Assembly: GCA_020629695.1 (NCBI GenBank)
Contig: JAHDCV010000008.1
Location: 10,653-72,911, forward strand
Source: Acidimicrobiales bacterium
GTDB lineage: Bacteria > Actinomycetota > Acidimicrobiia > Acidimicrobiales > SZUA-35
Direction of reading: 5' to 3'
DNA length: 62,259 nucleotides
The notes under the pieces are model-generated. The model was given only the letters and a program-made list of their open reading frames with translations. It ran no database searches and was not told the origin of the DNA. A program made the position numbers and the translations under genes. Positions 7,746-13,650 of the stretch are shown here, piece after piece; within the stretch, counting starts at the first letter, position 1, and each line of letters begins with the position of its first letter.

Positions 7746-10022
7746 TCAGCCGCCGAGCCCGGCCAGCACCTCGTCGAGTGACCGCAGCCCCTCCTGCAGA
7801 GAGGTCGCGAGCAGTTCGAGTTCGGTGCCCTCGATCGCGACCTCGATCGGCACGTTCAGCTGCACCGGGATGTCGACCTCGACCGGGACGGTCTCGTCGA
7901 TCGGTACCTCCACGTCGAGCTGGATCGGCACGTCCACGTCGACCGGAACCGAGACGTCGACGGGCACCTCGAAGCCGAGGCCCGTGTCGATCTCGATCGT
8001 GGTGTCGATCGTCTCGGAGATGTTGATCGTCTCGTCGACCGGAAAGCTGATCGTGCGCTCGAGCCGGACGTCGGTGCGGATCGGGATGGTCTCGTCGATC
8101 GGCACCTCGAAGCTGATCGTCGAGGTCTTGAACTCCTCGAGTTCGGCGATGGCGGTCTCGACACCGTCGCTCACGAGCGGTTCGAGATCGACGAGTTGCT
8201 GCTGGAACCCGGTCACCTGGGCTGCGAACAACGCCGATCCGGCCTCGACGCGGGCGAGATCCTCCTCGGTCTGCTGGAGCCGCTGCCAGAGCACGCCGAC
8301 CAGCAGGAGCGTCGCGACCAGTCCGATCCCGAGCGCGCCCAGCGCGACGAGCGCCCAGAACGGCAGCCGACGACGGTGTGCTGGTGCGGGCAGCGGGTCA
8401 TCGATCGGTGCGGTCCCATCGTGTCCGTGGTCGTCGGCGAAGTGCTGCATGGTGGCTCCGGTCGGGGTGGGATCGGTGGGCTCGTCGTCGAGCAGGACGG
8501 CGGCGACGAGGCCGAGCGCGGTGAGCGCAGCGGCCGCGAGGAAGGTCTGGGCGATGGCCTCGGCGGTGAGCCGAGCCGACGCCTCGGCAGCGGCGGCGGC
8601 GAAGCCGGGATCGGTGATCGGAGGCAGTTCGATGGTCGAACGCAGCGCGTTGAAGCGTCGGAGCCCCCAGGCGGTGAGGGCCGCGAGTCCCAGACTCAGA
8701 CCGAGCAGTCGCACCACCATGACCAGGCTGGCGGCGACGCCACGCCGGTCGACTCGTGCCCGATCGACCACGGCGGCGGTGGTCGGGGCGGTGATCAGTC
8801 CGAAGCCGGCGCCGAGCACGGCCAGTCCGGCCGCGAGGGTCGTGGTGGAGGTGCCGGGGGCCCACGTGCGACCCATGACGACGAAGGTGATCGCGGCGAT
8901 CGCGAGCCCGAGCAGGGTGGGTCGACGTGGACCGACCCGCTCGGTCCAGCGCCCACCCAGATAGCTCGTCACGGCCATGGCGCCGGTCATGGCCGCGAGC
9001 GCCGCACCGGCCGCGACCGCGGCACGTTCGACGTCGGGCTCGACCGCGTTGACGAACAGCGGCACGTCCACCATCGCGATCACGAGCCCCGCGCCCAACG
9101 CCAGGTTGGCGCCGAGCGCCGCCCGGCTCGATCGGTTCGCGATCAGGGCCGGGTCGACGAGCGGATCGGGTCGGCCTCGTTGCTGGAGCACGAGTGCGAC
9201 GGCGGCCATCGTTGCGGGGATCAGGGCCCAGCGCATGTCGGGGCCCGAACCTCCCGTCAGCTCGTCGAGGCCCGACACACTCTGGATCTCCGCGTTGCCG
9301 AGCAGCGCCAGACTGAAGCCGACGAGTGCCACGGTGAGCAGCGTGGTGCCGACCAGATCGATCCGTTCGGGCGGCGCGGGTCGGCGGTCGTCCGATCGAT
9401 CGTCGCTGCCGAGCGCCCACCAGAGCCAGACCAGCCCGATGGCGACCAGCGGCAGGTTGAGCCAGAACTGCCAGCGCCAGGACGCGAAACGGACGAGCGC
9501 CGCGCCGTACAGCGGACCCCACACCCAGCCGAGCGTCTCGATGGCGGCGAGGACGCCGAGGGCCCGCACCCGACGGGCGACGGGGTAGGCGTCGGCGACG
9601 ACGGCGAGGGCGACCGGGACCATCGCACCACCGCCCAGGGCGGTGAGCACACGACCGACCAGCAGTACGGGGTAGGAGGACGTCGCCGCGATCACGACCG
9701 ACCCGACGGCGAACGCGAGATAGGCCACGGTCAGGACCCGGCGGCGTCCGACCAGGTCGGACACCCGGCCGGCGATCGGCATCACCGCGATGAACGCGAG
9801 GAGGTAGACGTTGACGATCCAGGAGGCGTCGTCGATGCCGTCGGGGAGCACGAGGCCGACGTCGTTGATCATCGGGCGCAACATGGTCGACACGACCGTC
9901 AGGTCGTCGGCCGCGATGAACATCGCGAATCCGACGGCCGCGAGGATCGCACCGGGGGAGCGGAGCCGTTCGTCCCGGGCGGGCGAGGGCAGGCGCTCGG
10001 CCGGCGAGGTGGCGTCAGCCAT
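7746..10022 (-). CDS. MFS exporter (P55/Rv1410c-like context) with extra TM, coiled coil and beta-repeat tail
   Basis: Residues 1 to about 515 form a 14-helix DHA2-type major facilitator (GRVSDLVGRRRVL motif A region near residue 85). The gene overlaps the stop of the LprG-like lipoprotein gene by 8 bp, the arrangement of mycobacterial lprG-Rv1410c, whose products export triacylglycerides. Beyond the MFS core, residues 555-578 form another membrane helix preceded by Arg-rich HRRRLP. Residues 579-632 are probably coiled coil, and about 634-735 alternate Val/Ile/Pro with Asp/Glu/Thr (VPIDETIPI, FPVDETINI, VPVDVSVPV). A short helix closes the 758-residue protein. By the positive-inside rule the tail is extracytoplasmic (inference). 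The family is normally about 500-520 residues. Transport substrate unknown; lipid is inferred from context. Confidence 0.82.
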   Translation of the reverse strand: MADATSPAERLPSPARDERLRSPGAILAAVGFAMFIAADDLTVVSTMLRPMINDVGLVLPDGIDDASWIVNVYLLAFIAVMPIAGRVSDLVGRRRVLTVAYLAFAVGSVVIAATSSYPVLLVGRVLTALGGGAMVPVALAVVADAYPVARRVRALGVLAAIETLGWVWGPLYGAALVRFASWRWQFWLNLPLVAIGLVWLWWALGSDDRSDDRRPAPPERIDLVGTTLLTVALVGFSLALLGNAEIQSVSGLDELTGGSGPDMRWALIPATMAAVALVLQQRGRPDPLVDPALIANRSSRAALGANLALGAGLVIAMVDVPLFVNAVEPDVERAAVAAGAALAAMTGAMAVTSYLGGRWTERVGPRRPTLLGLAIAAITFVVMGRTWAPGTSTTTLAAGLAVLGAGFGLITAPTTAAVVDRARVDRRGVAASLVMVVRLLGLSLGLAALTAWGLRRFNALRSTIELPPITDPGFAAAAAEASARLTAEAIAQTFLAAAALTALGLVAAVLLDDEPTDPTPTGATMQHFADDHGHDGTAPIDDPLPAPAHRRRLPFWALVALGALGIGLVATLLLVGVLWQRLQQTEEDLARVEAGSALFAAQVTGFQQQLVDLEPLVSDGVETAIAELEEFKTSTISFEVPIDETIPIRTDVRLERTISFPVDETINISETIDTTIEIDTGLGFEVPVDVSVPVDVDVPIQLDVEVPIDETVPVEVDIPVQLNVPIEVAIEGTELELLATSLQEGLRSLDEVLAGLGG

Positions 10023-10788
10023 CGAGGTCGGGCGGCTCGATGGTCACCTCGGTCCCGTAGTCCTCGAGCTCGAGGATCCAGGCGGTCGTGGCGCCGTCGA
10101 TCGAGGTCTCGAACTCGGCCCGCACGACGGCGGCGGTGCGGACGTCGAGCCACAGCTCCACCGGCGTGTCCTGGCGAGCGGCGAGGCCGGCGGTCACCCG
10201 TCGGATGTCATCGCCCGTGGCGACGGCTCGGAGATGGTGCCCGAGATCGTCGGTCCCGATCGTCTCGACCTCGGTCAGGTTCTCGATGAGCGGGCGCCAA
10301 CCCTGTTCGGGATCGAAGAACCGGCTCGGATCGAGCCCGTAGCTCTCGGGCAGTGGTTCGAACACGCCGGTGATCGGATTCGAGAGCCAGGCCTCGGCGT
10401 CGATGGCGATGGCGCCGAGCTGGGTCCGGAGCGACTCGTTGACCTCGACGGTGAGCAGGGCGTCGGCCTTGGCCGGCACGACGAAGCGGCCCTCGACGTC
10501 GACGAGTGCCAGCGTCCGGAGCGGGTCGATGAACACCGGGTCGCCGTTCGCTTCCAGCCGGAAGCGCACACTCTCGACCGCGGCCATGGTCTCGGCCGAC
10601 GTGGCGGTGAGTTGCTCGGCGTCGAGCGGAAGCACCGGGCCGGAGGCTTCGGGGAGACTGCAGCCGGCGAGTGCGATCGCCGCGATGGCCAGGACGGCCG
10701 TCGCGGACCGGATCATTCGATGCGCGGAGTTCCGGCGCGCCCGGACGGGGTCGTGGAGGGAGCGCGGGGTGTGGGTCTGGTGCGGCAT
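10015..10788 (-). CDS. LprG/LppX-like lipoprotein (LppX_LprAFG family)
   Basis: Has a lipoprotein signal peptide with lipobox LAGC, so it should be exported and acylated. The mature part (about 215 aa) follows the LppX_LprAFG pattern: an N-terminal strand segment VRFRLEANGDPVF, an acidic middle, the hallmark FFDPEQGWRPLIENL, and a C-terminal half of beta strands. Family members form a half-barrel that carries a lipid between the membrane and outer layers. ATG 10788 is chosen because GAGGA lies just upstream; ATG 10716 would give a more usual 19-residue signal peptide. It overlaps the MFS gene, so the two are co-translated. It is divergent from the RND-like gene at 10963. Confidence 0.85.
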   Translation of the reverse strand: MPHQTHTPRSLHDPVRARRNSAHRMIRSATAVLAIAAIALAGCSLPEASGPVLPLDAEQLTATSAETMAAVESVRFRLEANGDPVFIDPLRTLALVDVEGRFVVPAKADALLTVEVNESLRTQLGAIAIDAEAWLSNPITGVFEPLPESYGLDPSRFFDPEQGWRPLIENLTEVETIGTDDLGHHLRAVATGDDIRRVTAGLAARQDTPVELWLDVRTAAVVRAEFETSIDGATTAWILELEDYGTEVTIEPPDLDG

Positions 10789-10804
10789 CGGGTCCTCGTC
10801 GTCG

Positions 10805-10810
10805 AGCGTA
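10805..10810 (-). promoter_or_regulatory. Candidate -10 (TACGCT) of the lipoprotein-MFS operon
   Basis: Minus-strand TACGCT would place the transcript start about 10 nt before the ATG at 10788, leaving a very short leader that contains GAGGA. No convincing -35 is seen. Confidence 0.35.
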
Positions 10811-10844
10811 TCGCCCAGGGTGGTCGAGATCCGGGCAACGGCGA

Positions 10845-10872
10845 CGTTGGGTGGTCGCGGCACCACCCAACG
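10845..10872. promoter_or_regulatory. Operator-like inverted repeat in divergent promoter region
   Basis: Perfect 11-bp inverted repeat CGTTGGGTGGT/ACCACCCAACG separated by 6 nt, between the divergent lipoprotein-MFS operon and RND-like gene. Symmetry and position fit a dimeric repressor site. A hairpin in one of the two leaders is less likely because it lies upstream of both predicted transcript starts. Confidence 0.5.
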
Positions 10873-10879
10873 GAGGGAC

Positions 10880-10910
10880 CCCACGAAGAACGGTCCACCA
10901 CCCACGAAGA
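10880..10910. repeat. Direct repeat CCCACGAAGA, 21-bp period
   Basis: Identical 10-bp copies at 10880-10889 and 10901-10910. Their spacing of two helical turns puts both on the same DNA face. They lie just upstream of a TACAGT -10 candidate (10919-10924) for the plus-strand gene, as activator or repressor half-sites would. Confidence 0.45.
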
Positions 10911-10962: not shown

Positions 10963-13650
10963 ATGGCTCCAACTCATGAACGACTGCTGAAGCGTCTCGC
11001 GACGACATTCGGTATCGCGATCGCGCTCCTCCTCGCCCTCGGCGGTGTGGTGTCCGCGCTCGACGAGAGTCGGCCGAACCTCGCGACCCAGGTCGCGATG
11101 GAGCAGGGCCCCAACGGCGACCTGCCGGATCTCGTGGTGCTGGTGCGCGACCTGCCGGCCGGCGCCGACTTCGCCGCGGTCGATCGATCGGTCACCGCGC
11201 TCGACGAGGTCGAGTCCGTCGTCGTCGAGGCCAACGGGGCCGACCAGGCGGTCGTGCACGTGTCGCTCCACGCCCGGGCCGGTGCCGCCACGCCCGATCT
11301 CGTGCTCGACACCGTCGCCGCGGAGGTGCCCGATGCCGAACTGATCCTCGGCGGACGGGTCGCGGTCGATCGGACGTTGGTCGACCGGGTGAACCGGGCC
11401 CTCGTCGTCGCAGTCGTGCCCGTGCTGGTGCTGATCGCCGCATTCGCCGCCGCCACGATCGGCACCGCTCGAGCCCTCGTCGCCGCCGGGTCGATCGCGC
11501 TGGCGACACTGCTGTCCGGTCTGGTGGCCGCACAGCTCGTCGGATCGTTCGACGGCTCGCTCGGCTCGACCGCCATGCCGTCGGTGCTGTGTGCGGTGTT
11601 GATCTCGTCGGTGCTCACGTTCCGATTGCTCGACTGGTTCACCCAGCCGATCGGTTCGGACCCCTCGGCCTGGGTCCGTCTCTCCGTTCGGTCGCTGATC
11701 CCCGAGGTCGTCCTGCTCCACGTCGGTCTCGTCGGCGCGGCCCTCGTCGTGGAGCTGATCGTCGGTCCGGCCCCGATCTCGGCGGTGGCGTTCTCCTCGA
11801 TGGTCGCCACGGTCGTCACCCTGGCCACCGTCGCTCCGGGTCTGGCCACCTTCGGTCCCCTGGTCGACGACACGATCTTCCGGCCCTTCAACGTCCGGAT
11901 CCCCGACGGGCGGGACTTCCCCCTGGCCGTCCTCGGCGGCTTCGCCTGCTTCCTGCTGGCGCTCGGACTCTTCGCGACCCGCGCGCCGAGTCGTGAGCTG
12001 CTCGACGAGTCGGCCCTCGCCCCGGGCGTCGCGGCCGATCGAGTGGCTCGTGAGCTCGCCGCACTCGGCGGCGATCCGACCTCTGCCATCCTGGTCGAGT
12101 TCGATCCGGGCGCCGACGCGGCGGCCATGTCGACCTGGGCGGCGGCTGCGTCGCAGATCGGTGCGGTGGCCTGGGTCGAGACCTCTGCCGGTCGGTTCAC
12201 CGACGGTGTGTTGGCCGAGGGCGCCGCCGCATTCGTCGACGAGACGACACCTCGCGCCGTGGTCACTCCCGTGGGAACCGCTCGGGCCGTGGCCACCCAG
12301 CGCCTCGTCGACGCCCTGCCCGCCGTCGGTGGGTACGACGGACAGATCACGCTGCGCGGTACCCCGATCGCCGCGGGCTCGGCGGTCGAGGGAGGCACGC
12401 TCCAGCTCTGGCTCCTGATCGGTGCCCTGTCGCTCGCCGGTGCCGCCGCCGTCATGTTGCTCATGGGCGATCTCATGGTGGCCGCCTCCTCGGCGGCGCT
12501 CCGGCTCCTCGGCCTCGCCGCCCTGGTCGGGGTCTACCGGTTGGTCGCCGGTGAGACCTCGTCGATCGAGGCCCAGATCCTCGTCCTGGTGGTCGGTGTC
12601 GGTGTCGGGCTGTTCGAGTTGGGCTTCGTCCGTCGGCTGTCCCTCGGTCGGGACGGCCTCGCCGGGAACGGTCTCGTGACCTCGGCGCTGTCGCGCGACG
12701 GTCGGGCCGGCATGGTCGGCCTCGTGATCGTCGCCCTCACCTCGCTCGGTCTGGTGGCCAGCGACCTCGCGATGCTGCGGCGTCTCGCGGTCGGCCTCGT
12801 GGCCGGCATCCTCATCGAGCTGGTCGTGGGGATCTGGTTGTTGCGGCCGGCCCTGCTCGCCGACCTCGCCGGCGTCAGCAACACCGCCGCCGCGGCCCGC
12901 CGCCGCGGCGACCTCGTCGCCGCCGCCGCCGAACAGGCGACGCTGCCGGCGCCGAGTTTCGCCGCCGCGACGACGCTCGTACCCGACACCAGCGCCGGTC
13001 TCCCGTCACCGGCGATGGCGGGTGCGGTGCCGTCCGCCGGAGCGGCCTCGATGGGAGCCGGTGGGCTCGCCGCCTCGTCGGGACCCACGTCGGCGACGAA
13101 TGCCGTGGCCTCGGCTGCGATGTCGCCGGGCTCGGCCGCGGAGGCGCCTCCGGCTGCTGGCGGAACGGCCGCCCCGGGCACCGGCGGTCGGGTCGCCCCG
13201 AGCGCTCCGGAGTGGCGTCGCATCATCGGTGGCCTCCTCCGTGCCGAGTTCGACTTCCAGGCGGATCCCGGATCGGCCGAGCTGGAGACGGTCTTCGTGG
13301 AGAAGACCCCGCTCTGGGACGAACTGGTCGACCATCACGCCAAGCTCCGCGCCGCCGGCGTGCGGGTCACGGGTCGTGGCCCGATGGTCCGGGTCGCCCG
13401 GGTCATCAACGACAGCTCGCCCGTGACACTCGAGATCACCGTCGACCATCCCGTGCGTCACCTGATCGACGGTCAGGGCCGTGTCGTCGGCCGTCGCGCC
13501 GCCGAGCGGCGCAACGGCATGTTGTGGCTCGTGCAGGATCCGTCGGGTCGATACCGGATCGCCGAGGCGGTCGACCTCGGCACGGCCGCGGCGACCGAGG
13601 ACGAGGCGGCCATCTCCGTCGTCGAGCAGCCGTCGATCGCCATGGCCTGA
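10963..13650 (+). CDS. RND/MMPL-like membrane protein with C-terminal folded domain
   Basis: An 895-residue protein with RND topology: TM1 near residues 12-30, an extracytoplasmic domain (about 31-140), a block of six helices to about residue 345, a second extracytoplasmic domain (about 346-480), then five more helices to about 640. After an Ala/Pro/Ser-rich cytoplasmic linker (about 650-750) comes a folded domain (about 755-890) with alternating strands that looks NTF2-like. Sequence similarity to MmpL/RND exporters is weak, and the proton-relay Asp-Tyr pairs of MmpL3 are not obvious, so active transport is not certain. Being divergent from an LprG-like lipoprotein and MFS pair suggests a shared envelope-lipid task (inference). 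Confidence 0.7.
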   Translation: MAPTHERLLKRLATTFGIAIALLLALGGVVSALDESRPNLATQVAMEQGPNGDLPDLVVLVRDLPAGADFAAVDRSVTALDEVESVVVEANGADQAVVHVSLHARAGAATPDLVLDTVAAEVPDAELILGGRVAVDRTLVDRVNRALVVAVVPVLVLIAAFAAATIGTARALVAAGSIALATLLSGLVAAQLVGSFDGSLGSTAMPSVLCAVLISSVLTFRLLDWFTQPIGSDPSAWVRLSVRSLIPEVVLLHVGLVGAALVVELIVGPAPISAVAFSSMVATVVTLATVAPGLATFGPLVDDTIFRPFNVRIPDGRDFPLAVLGGFACFLLALGLFATRAPSRELLDESALAPGVAADRVARELAALGGDPTSAILVEFDPGADAAAMSTWAAAASQIGAVAWVETSAGRFTDGVLAEGAAAFVDETTPRAVVTPVGTARAVATQRLVDALPAVGGYDGQITLRGTPIAAGSAVEGGTLQLWLLIGALSLAGAAAVMLLMGDLMVAASSAALRLLGLAALVGVYRLVAGETSSIEAQILVLVVGVGVGLFELGFVRRLSLGRDGLAGNGLVTSALSRDGRAGMVGLVIVALTSLGLVASDLAMLRRLAVGLVAGILIELVVGIWLLRPALLADLAGVSNTAAAARRRGDLVAAAAEQATLPAPSFAAATTLVPDTSAGLPSPAMAGAVPSAGAASMGAGGLAASSGPTSATNAVASAAMSPGSAAEAPPAAGGTAAPGTGGRVAPSAPEWRRIIGGLLRAEFDFQADPGSAELETVFVEKTPLWDELVDHHAKLRAAGVRVTGRGPMVRVARVINDSSPVTLEITVDHPVRHLIDGQGRVVGRRAAERRNGMLWLVQDPSGRYRIAEAVDLGTAAATEDEAAISVVEQPSIAMA

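Follow-up and report, generated by a model that had tools for sequence, protein, structure and literature searches.

A separable membrane-anchored beta-hairpin module fused to an LprG-Rv1410-like exporter in Acidimicrobiia, with a candidate internal start

The C-terminal tail of an MFS exporter encoded in a 62,259-nucleotide stretch of DNA from an Acidimicrobiales bacterium (contig JAHDCV010000008.1; hereafter the window) is a separable protein module and not intrinsic to the MFS protein. The module occupies the end of a 758-residue open reading frame at positions 7746-10022 on the minus strand, whose coordinates and residue numbering we verified (residue 555 corresponds to position 8360 and residue 735 to position 7818). 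The gene architecture, comprising the module, its history of fusion and splitting and its start signal, is well supported, and the gene probably yields both an MFS-tail fusion and a free tail, judging from the nucleotide sequence. The best explanation as a whole, which we regard as evenly balanced between right and wrong, would be a dual-product tail that forms an oligomeric extracytoplasmic adaptor of the exporter.

The reading frame is an MFS exporter, a variant of the LprG-Rv1410 kind, with its transport role predicted from the genes. Its MFS domain (residues about 26-512; 8487-9947, minus strand) matches PF07690 with an E value of 1.9e-57, and its closest NCBIfam model is an EmrB-type DHA2 protein. 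The best solved-structure match is 8pnl, annotated "Putative triacylglyceride transporter" (E 2.5e-53, limited to residues 18-484), followed by EfpA (E 3.3e-21). The 8pnl entry is MHAS2168, a homologue of Rv1410, and extended periplasmic TM11/TM12 helices and linker helices TMA/TMB are a feature of the Rv1410-type structure (PMC10576003). Upstream of the MFS gene and overlapping its start by 8 nt lies an LprG/LppX-type lipoprotein gene (10015-10905, minus strand; LppX_LprAFG family PF07161, E 1.2e-10) with a lipobox ending in IALAGC and a true start that is probably inside the annotated frame; such a gene is found immediately 5' of the MFS gene at nearly all tail-bearing loci examined. This order of lipoprotein and then MFS gene, together with 8pnl as the top PDB match, resembles the LprG-Rv1410 (P55) triacylglyceride/lipoglycan export operon, an arrangement studied in mycobacteria (PMC10576003, PMC4709180), whereas the tail described here has no PDB sequence match of any kind. 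The adjacent LprG-like lipoprotein makes a lipid route plausible. Acidimicrobiia are not known to possess a mycomembrane, so the substrate may differ from that of LprG-Rv1410, and an outer membrane is not known to be established for bacteria of this group. Next to the lipoprotein gene, a divergent 895-residue gene (10963-13650, plus strand) appears by eye to encode a multi-TM MMPL/RND-like protein and has no Pfam match; its adjacency is conserved only within the same genus, which excludes it as part of the unit.

A preliminary description of the window had proposed that the exporter carries an extra membrane helix at residues 555-578, a coiled coil up to residue 632 and a region of alternating hydrophobic and acidic repeats. 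The alternation is real: residues 633-740 score 32, compared with 10.2 ± 2.8 in shuffled sequences, and none of 20,000 shuffles scored as high. Codon use in the tail is coding-like, with a GC3 of about 0.95, and the tail is kept at 40-75% identity within Acidimicrobiia. These two observations exclude a missing or poor coding frame, and conservation across many families indicates that the tail is neither a chance product nor a recent local expansion.

An AlphaFold2 model of the tail, built from an alignment of 47 homologues, is ordered rather than disordered (mean pLDDT 87.4, pTM 0.44). A single predicted helix at residues 555-632 (8127-8360; tail numbering 31-108) comprises the membrane helix and an extracytoplasmic, coiled-coil-like extension of about 53 residues, in agreement with the preliminary description. 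It is followed by a beta strand at residues 635-679 (7986-8120; tail residues 111-155), a TGLGF turn at residues 680-684 (7971-7985), a second strand at residues 685-729 (7836-7970; tail residues 161-205) and, beyond the interval described previously, a C-terminal amphipathic helix at residues 734-757 (7752-7823; tail residues 210-233), all on the minus strand. The extended amphipathic beta structure that had been suggested thus holds, with its hydrophobic positions on one face, and the repeat units do not, because the region consists of two antiparallel strands of 45 residues each, which at about 3.3 Å per residue would form one hairpin of roughly 150 Å. The turn is conserved across homologues as a glycine-containing motif. 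A Chloroflexota member is also modelled as a long hairpin, of 38/38 residues, with moderate confidence (pLDDT 73).

Strand lengths supply support for the hairpin that is independent of the model. They are 45/45 in most Acidimicrobiia homologues and 51/51 in four (L080, L093, L099 and L101), where an insertion of six residues on one strand faces an equal insertion on the other (position sum 1362; predicted pairing 1364); the paired insertions probably represent one event, since the four carriers are related. The pattern would fit a hairpin that lengthens in steps, each adding one VPxDxx unit to both strands. Only two strands being modelled, and their lengths co-varying, a repeat solenoid or multi-strand beta groove was excluded.

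In the modelled pairing, the hydrophobic residues of the two strands share a face (correlation 0.60), and shifting it by one residue makes the correlation negative (-0.63 to -0.69); shifts of two residues score similarly or better, so that this test determines the face but not the precise register. One face consists mostly of V, I, L and F; residues D, E, T and P abound on the other, which makes the solvent face strongly acidic, with a net charge of -4 to -22 for the hairpin. The hydrophobic face is not uniformly greasy, as about one in three inward-pointing residues of strand 1 is polar. Five polar residues on the hydrophobic face of strand 1, E644, T650, R656, E664 and E670 (about 7968-8093), are spaced about six residues apart and may represent subunit contacts or a channel lining. 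A positively charged flank precedes the tail membrane helix and the exporter is presumably a 14-TM-type MFS protein with a cytoplasmic C-terminus; from these features we infer that the tail beyond its membrane helix is extracytoplasmic and not cytoplasmic.

Searches with the 47 members returned no Pfam family for the tail, and no PDB sequence match was found; Pfam matches to DUF3194 and DUF948 were weak or confined to few members and were judged compositional. Foldseek and VIA-align comparisons with known structures gave only long-helix or pore-hairpin look-alikes of no significance, the best Foldseek match being a phage tail protein (E 3.9e-3). Lysenin, aerolysin and the FliF collar also have long amphipathic hairpins, which form barrels through oligomerization, but their matches to the tail were weak and not significant, and there is no sequence relation. 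The absence of a significant fold match does not make the fold new. Collectively, the model supports the tail as a member of an unnamed family with a short cytoplasmic N-terminus, a membrane helix, a long helix, a giant amphipathic hairpin and a C-terminal helix.

The distribution of the module establishes its separability. Of 199 Anaerolineae genomes, 77 carry stand-alone homologues, mostly in frames of about 170-350 residues, and several Acidimicrobiia have them too. Eleven Acidimicrobiia genomes with a stand-alone module were checked; four also have a close MFS relative, and in three draft genomes (G421, G420 and G468) the relative and the module are on different contigs. In an Ilumatobacter-type clade (L045, L095, L097 and L100), the module is encoded by a gene of its own, which begins in overlap with the stop of the MFS gene. 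The MFS tree contains 46 tail-bearing loci, which form one side of a branch with support 94 and of which 39 have the tail fused in frame; the split clade is nested among fused rows, and the fused, split or absent label requires about four changes. The tail had previously been described as an extension of the MFS protein, which is correct for the fusion in the window and not for the MFS domain, given the free-standing homologues, the split gene and the ribosome-binding site and start that the tail has of its own. It is kept in most orthologues, and six genomes from the same family as the window have the lipoprotein and MFS genes with no tail, so this exporter type does not need it. Nearly all loci come from metagenome-assembled genomes. 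One further frame (L041) lacks the module layout; it and four other loci (L042 and L155-L157) are weak matches at the level of order or phylum.

Among the stand-alone proteins are unnamed ones with a membrane helix and a beta hairpin, in four loci (L103, L104, L106 and L167) and about 77 Anaerolineae genomes, sometimes several per genome. The neighbours of the L103 module resemble an NRPS-type gene, a methyltransferase, a sulfotransferase and a Ser/Thr kinase, and in two Acidimicrobiia genomes (L147 and L148) the module has Suf-like iron-sulfur genes on one side and a sirtuin-like gene on the other.

Because the module occurs with no neighbouring exporter in several Acidimicrobiia and in Anaerolineae, its fundamental function may lie outside lipid export. 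It might instead be a general envelope protein, such as a mechanical spacer, wall anchor or surface rod, that shares the exporter operon and frame by chance and handles no lipid. The stand-alone members, the tail-less MFS relatives and the acidic solvent face all favour such a protein; however, the lipoprotein-MFS-tail order is retained across many Acidimicrobiia families and the in-frame fusion has been maintained, and we consider this account rather improbable. That the tail acts as an adaptor of the exporter appears slightly the better bet.

The fused gene also contains what appears to be a hidden start for the tail. In nearly all fused frames, an in-frame ATG (rarely GTG) preceded by a Shine-Dalgarno (SD) sequence, mostly 5-9 nt upstream, is present in the linker before the membrane helix. 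In the window this signal, ccGGAGccaccATG, lies at 8459-8448 on the minus strand, outside the interval described previously; its GGAG (8456-8459) precedes by 5 nt the ATG of Met525 (8448-8450), the putative first codon of a free tail of 234 residues, at the end of a cytoplasmic linker (residues 513-524; 8451-8486) that varies in sequence and length among homologues. A strict SD with an in-frame ATG was found in 32 of 37 fused frames, compared with a mean of 3.7 and a maximum of 14 in 100,000 simulations that shuffled linker codons, while such a site accompanied only 9 of 394 ATGs within the MFS domain and, among out-of-frame ATGs of the linker, 1 of 20; the sequences being related, these counts are not independent events. 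Anti-SD energies at linker starts also differed from background (p 4e-22). Each of the three codon phases is represented among the linker SDs, which points to a signal in the nucleotide sequence rather than one imposed by a conserved peptide. Predicted mRNA structure was weaker at the start site than 60-150 nt away (-6.6 vs -10.4 kcal/mol; Wilcoxon p 5.5e-7), and the mRNA there is also GC-poorer, so that linker composition may contribute to the low structure. The split Ilumatobacter-type tail genes begin at the position equivalent to the internal start and with the same SD (GGAGccacgccGTG and GGAGccaccgATG). A synonymous-codon test of the SD, which has little power per gene, gave a median p of 0.16 per gene and a combined p of 3e-5, the latter using the best start per linker and ignoring relatedness.

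A fused gene in which the tail retains a separate ribosome-binding site and start codon would be expected to give two products. Alternatively, the tail could work only when fused to the MFS protein, with the internal SD and ATG an unused relic of a two-gene past; internal starts can go unused, and the fused frame stays open in the large majority of tail-bearing loci. We regard this as improbable, since the signal survives in linkers that have diverged past alignment, in varied codon phases and with a drop in mRNA structure, and a free tail suffices in the split clade. The predicted dual-product arrangement resembles cas8c/cas11 of type I-C Cascade, where the C-terminal part of a larger frame likewise has its own in-frame ribosome-binding site and start and where split and fused versions both exist. 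There, two copies of the separately started small subunit assemble next to the fused one (PMC7684278), and an archaeal case of an internally started Cas11-type subunit has been described (PMC11899642). The proteins are unrelated, however, and the free product is here a prediction.

In the mechanism that we propose, a stand-alone module would have joined an LprG-Rv1410-like lipid-export operon in Acidimicrobiia and would then have been fused in frame to the MFS gene, with its ribosome-binding site and start codon preserved. Ribosomes translating the whole gene would produce the MFS-tail fusion, and those starting at Met525 would produce the free 234-residue tail, with its N-terminus inside and its C-terminus outside. 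Free and fused tails may co-assemble, by analogy with cas8c/cas11, with contacts along the long helix and with their V/I faces buried. With up to about 80 Å of helix and about 150 Å of hairpin, the assembly could form a rigid rod or tube that extends as far as about 20 nm into the envelope, a length that would suit passage through the wall, and it could guide lipid between the MFS exit or the LprG-like lipoprotein and the cell-wall side. It might equally hold the lipoprotein close to the exporter, or be no more than a rod. The oligomer and the lipid conduit are the conjectural parts of this scheme, and a lipid-conducting tube or groove seems to us doubtful. The preliminary description had envisaged a slide from the transporter to the lipoprotein or an outer layer, with a hydrophobic face that could shield acyl chains. 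The ordered amphipathic beta structure, its V/I/L/F face and the LprG-like neighbour stand, but a slide formed by one monomeric fused tail per MFS protein is very improbable, as a lone two-stranded ribbon would expose its full V/I face (about 37 aliphatic or aromatic side chains), roughly a third of the strand 1 inward positions are polar, and the coiled-coil-like helix and predicted extra free copies suggest oligomers.

Other known systems bear partial likeness to the proposed adaptor. MmpS5-MmpL5 is an actinobacterial exporter that also has a long extracytoplasmic extension, but it combines an RND transporter with an alpha-helical tube, in contrast to the MFS protein and predicted beta hairpin here; the periplasmic coiled-coil tube of MmpL5 is a proposed route for substrate through the wall (PMC12501195). 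EmrA/HlyD adaptors, as in EmrAB, share a single membrane helix, a long helix, a beta part and a DHA2-type MFS partner, whereas no HlyD or lipoyl Pfam match was found among the 47 module members and the model is a single long hairpin. Nor did these members match a Pfam family of the AsmA/TamB/VPS13-type beta groove, and only two strands are predicted.

In summary, these findings describe an unnamed and fairly widespread family of membrane proteins, present in about 39% of the sampled Anaerolineae genomes and in many Acidimicrobiia; the amphipathic hairpin of its members is simple and very long and has no Pfam or PDB sequence match. The family is tied to the LprG-Rv1410 exporter type and bears on the lipid route beyond the inner membrane. 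We speculate that it may include a class of envelope conduit, a rather unlikely one at present, in which tethered and internally initiated free hairpins would form a hydrophobic beta tube or trough carrying lipid across the Acidimicrobiia wall, with the stand-alone Anaerolineae proteins doing related work. As read from its sequence, a transporter gene appears to encode its own adaptor twice, once fused and once free; standard annotation would list one long MFS protein and miss the internal tail product.
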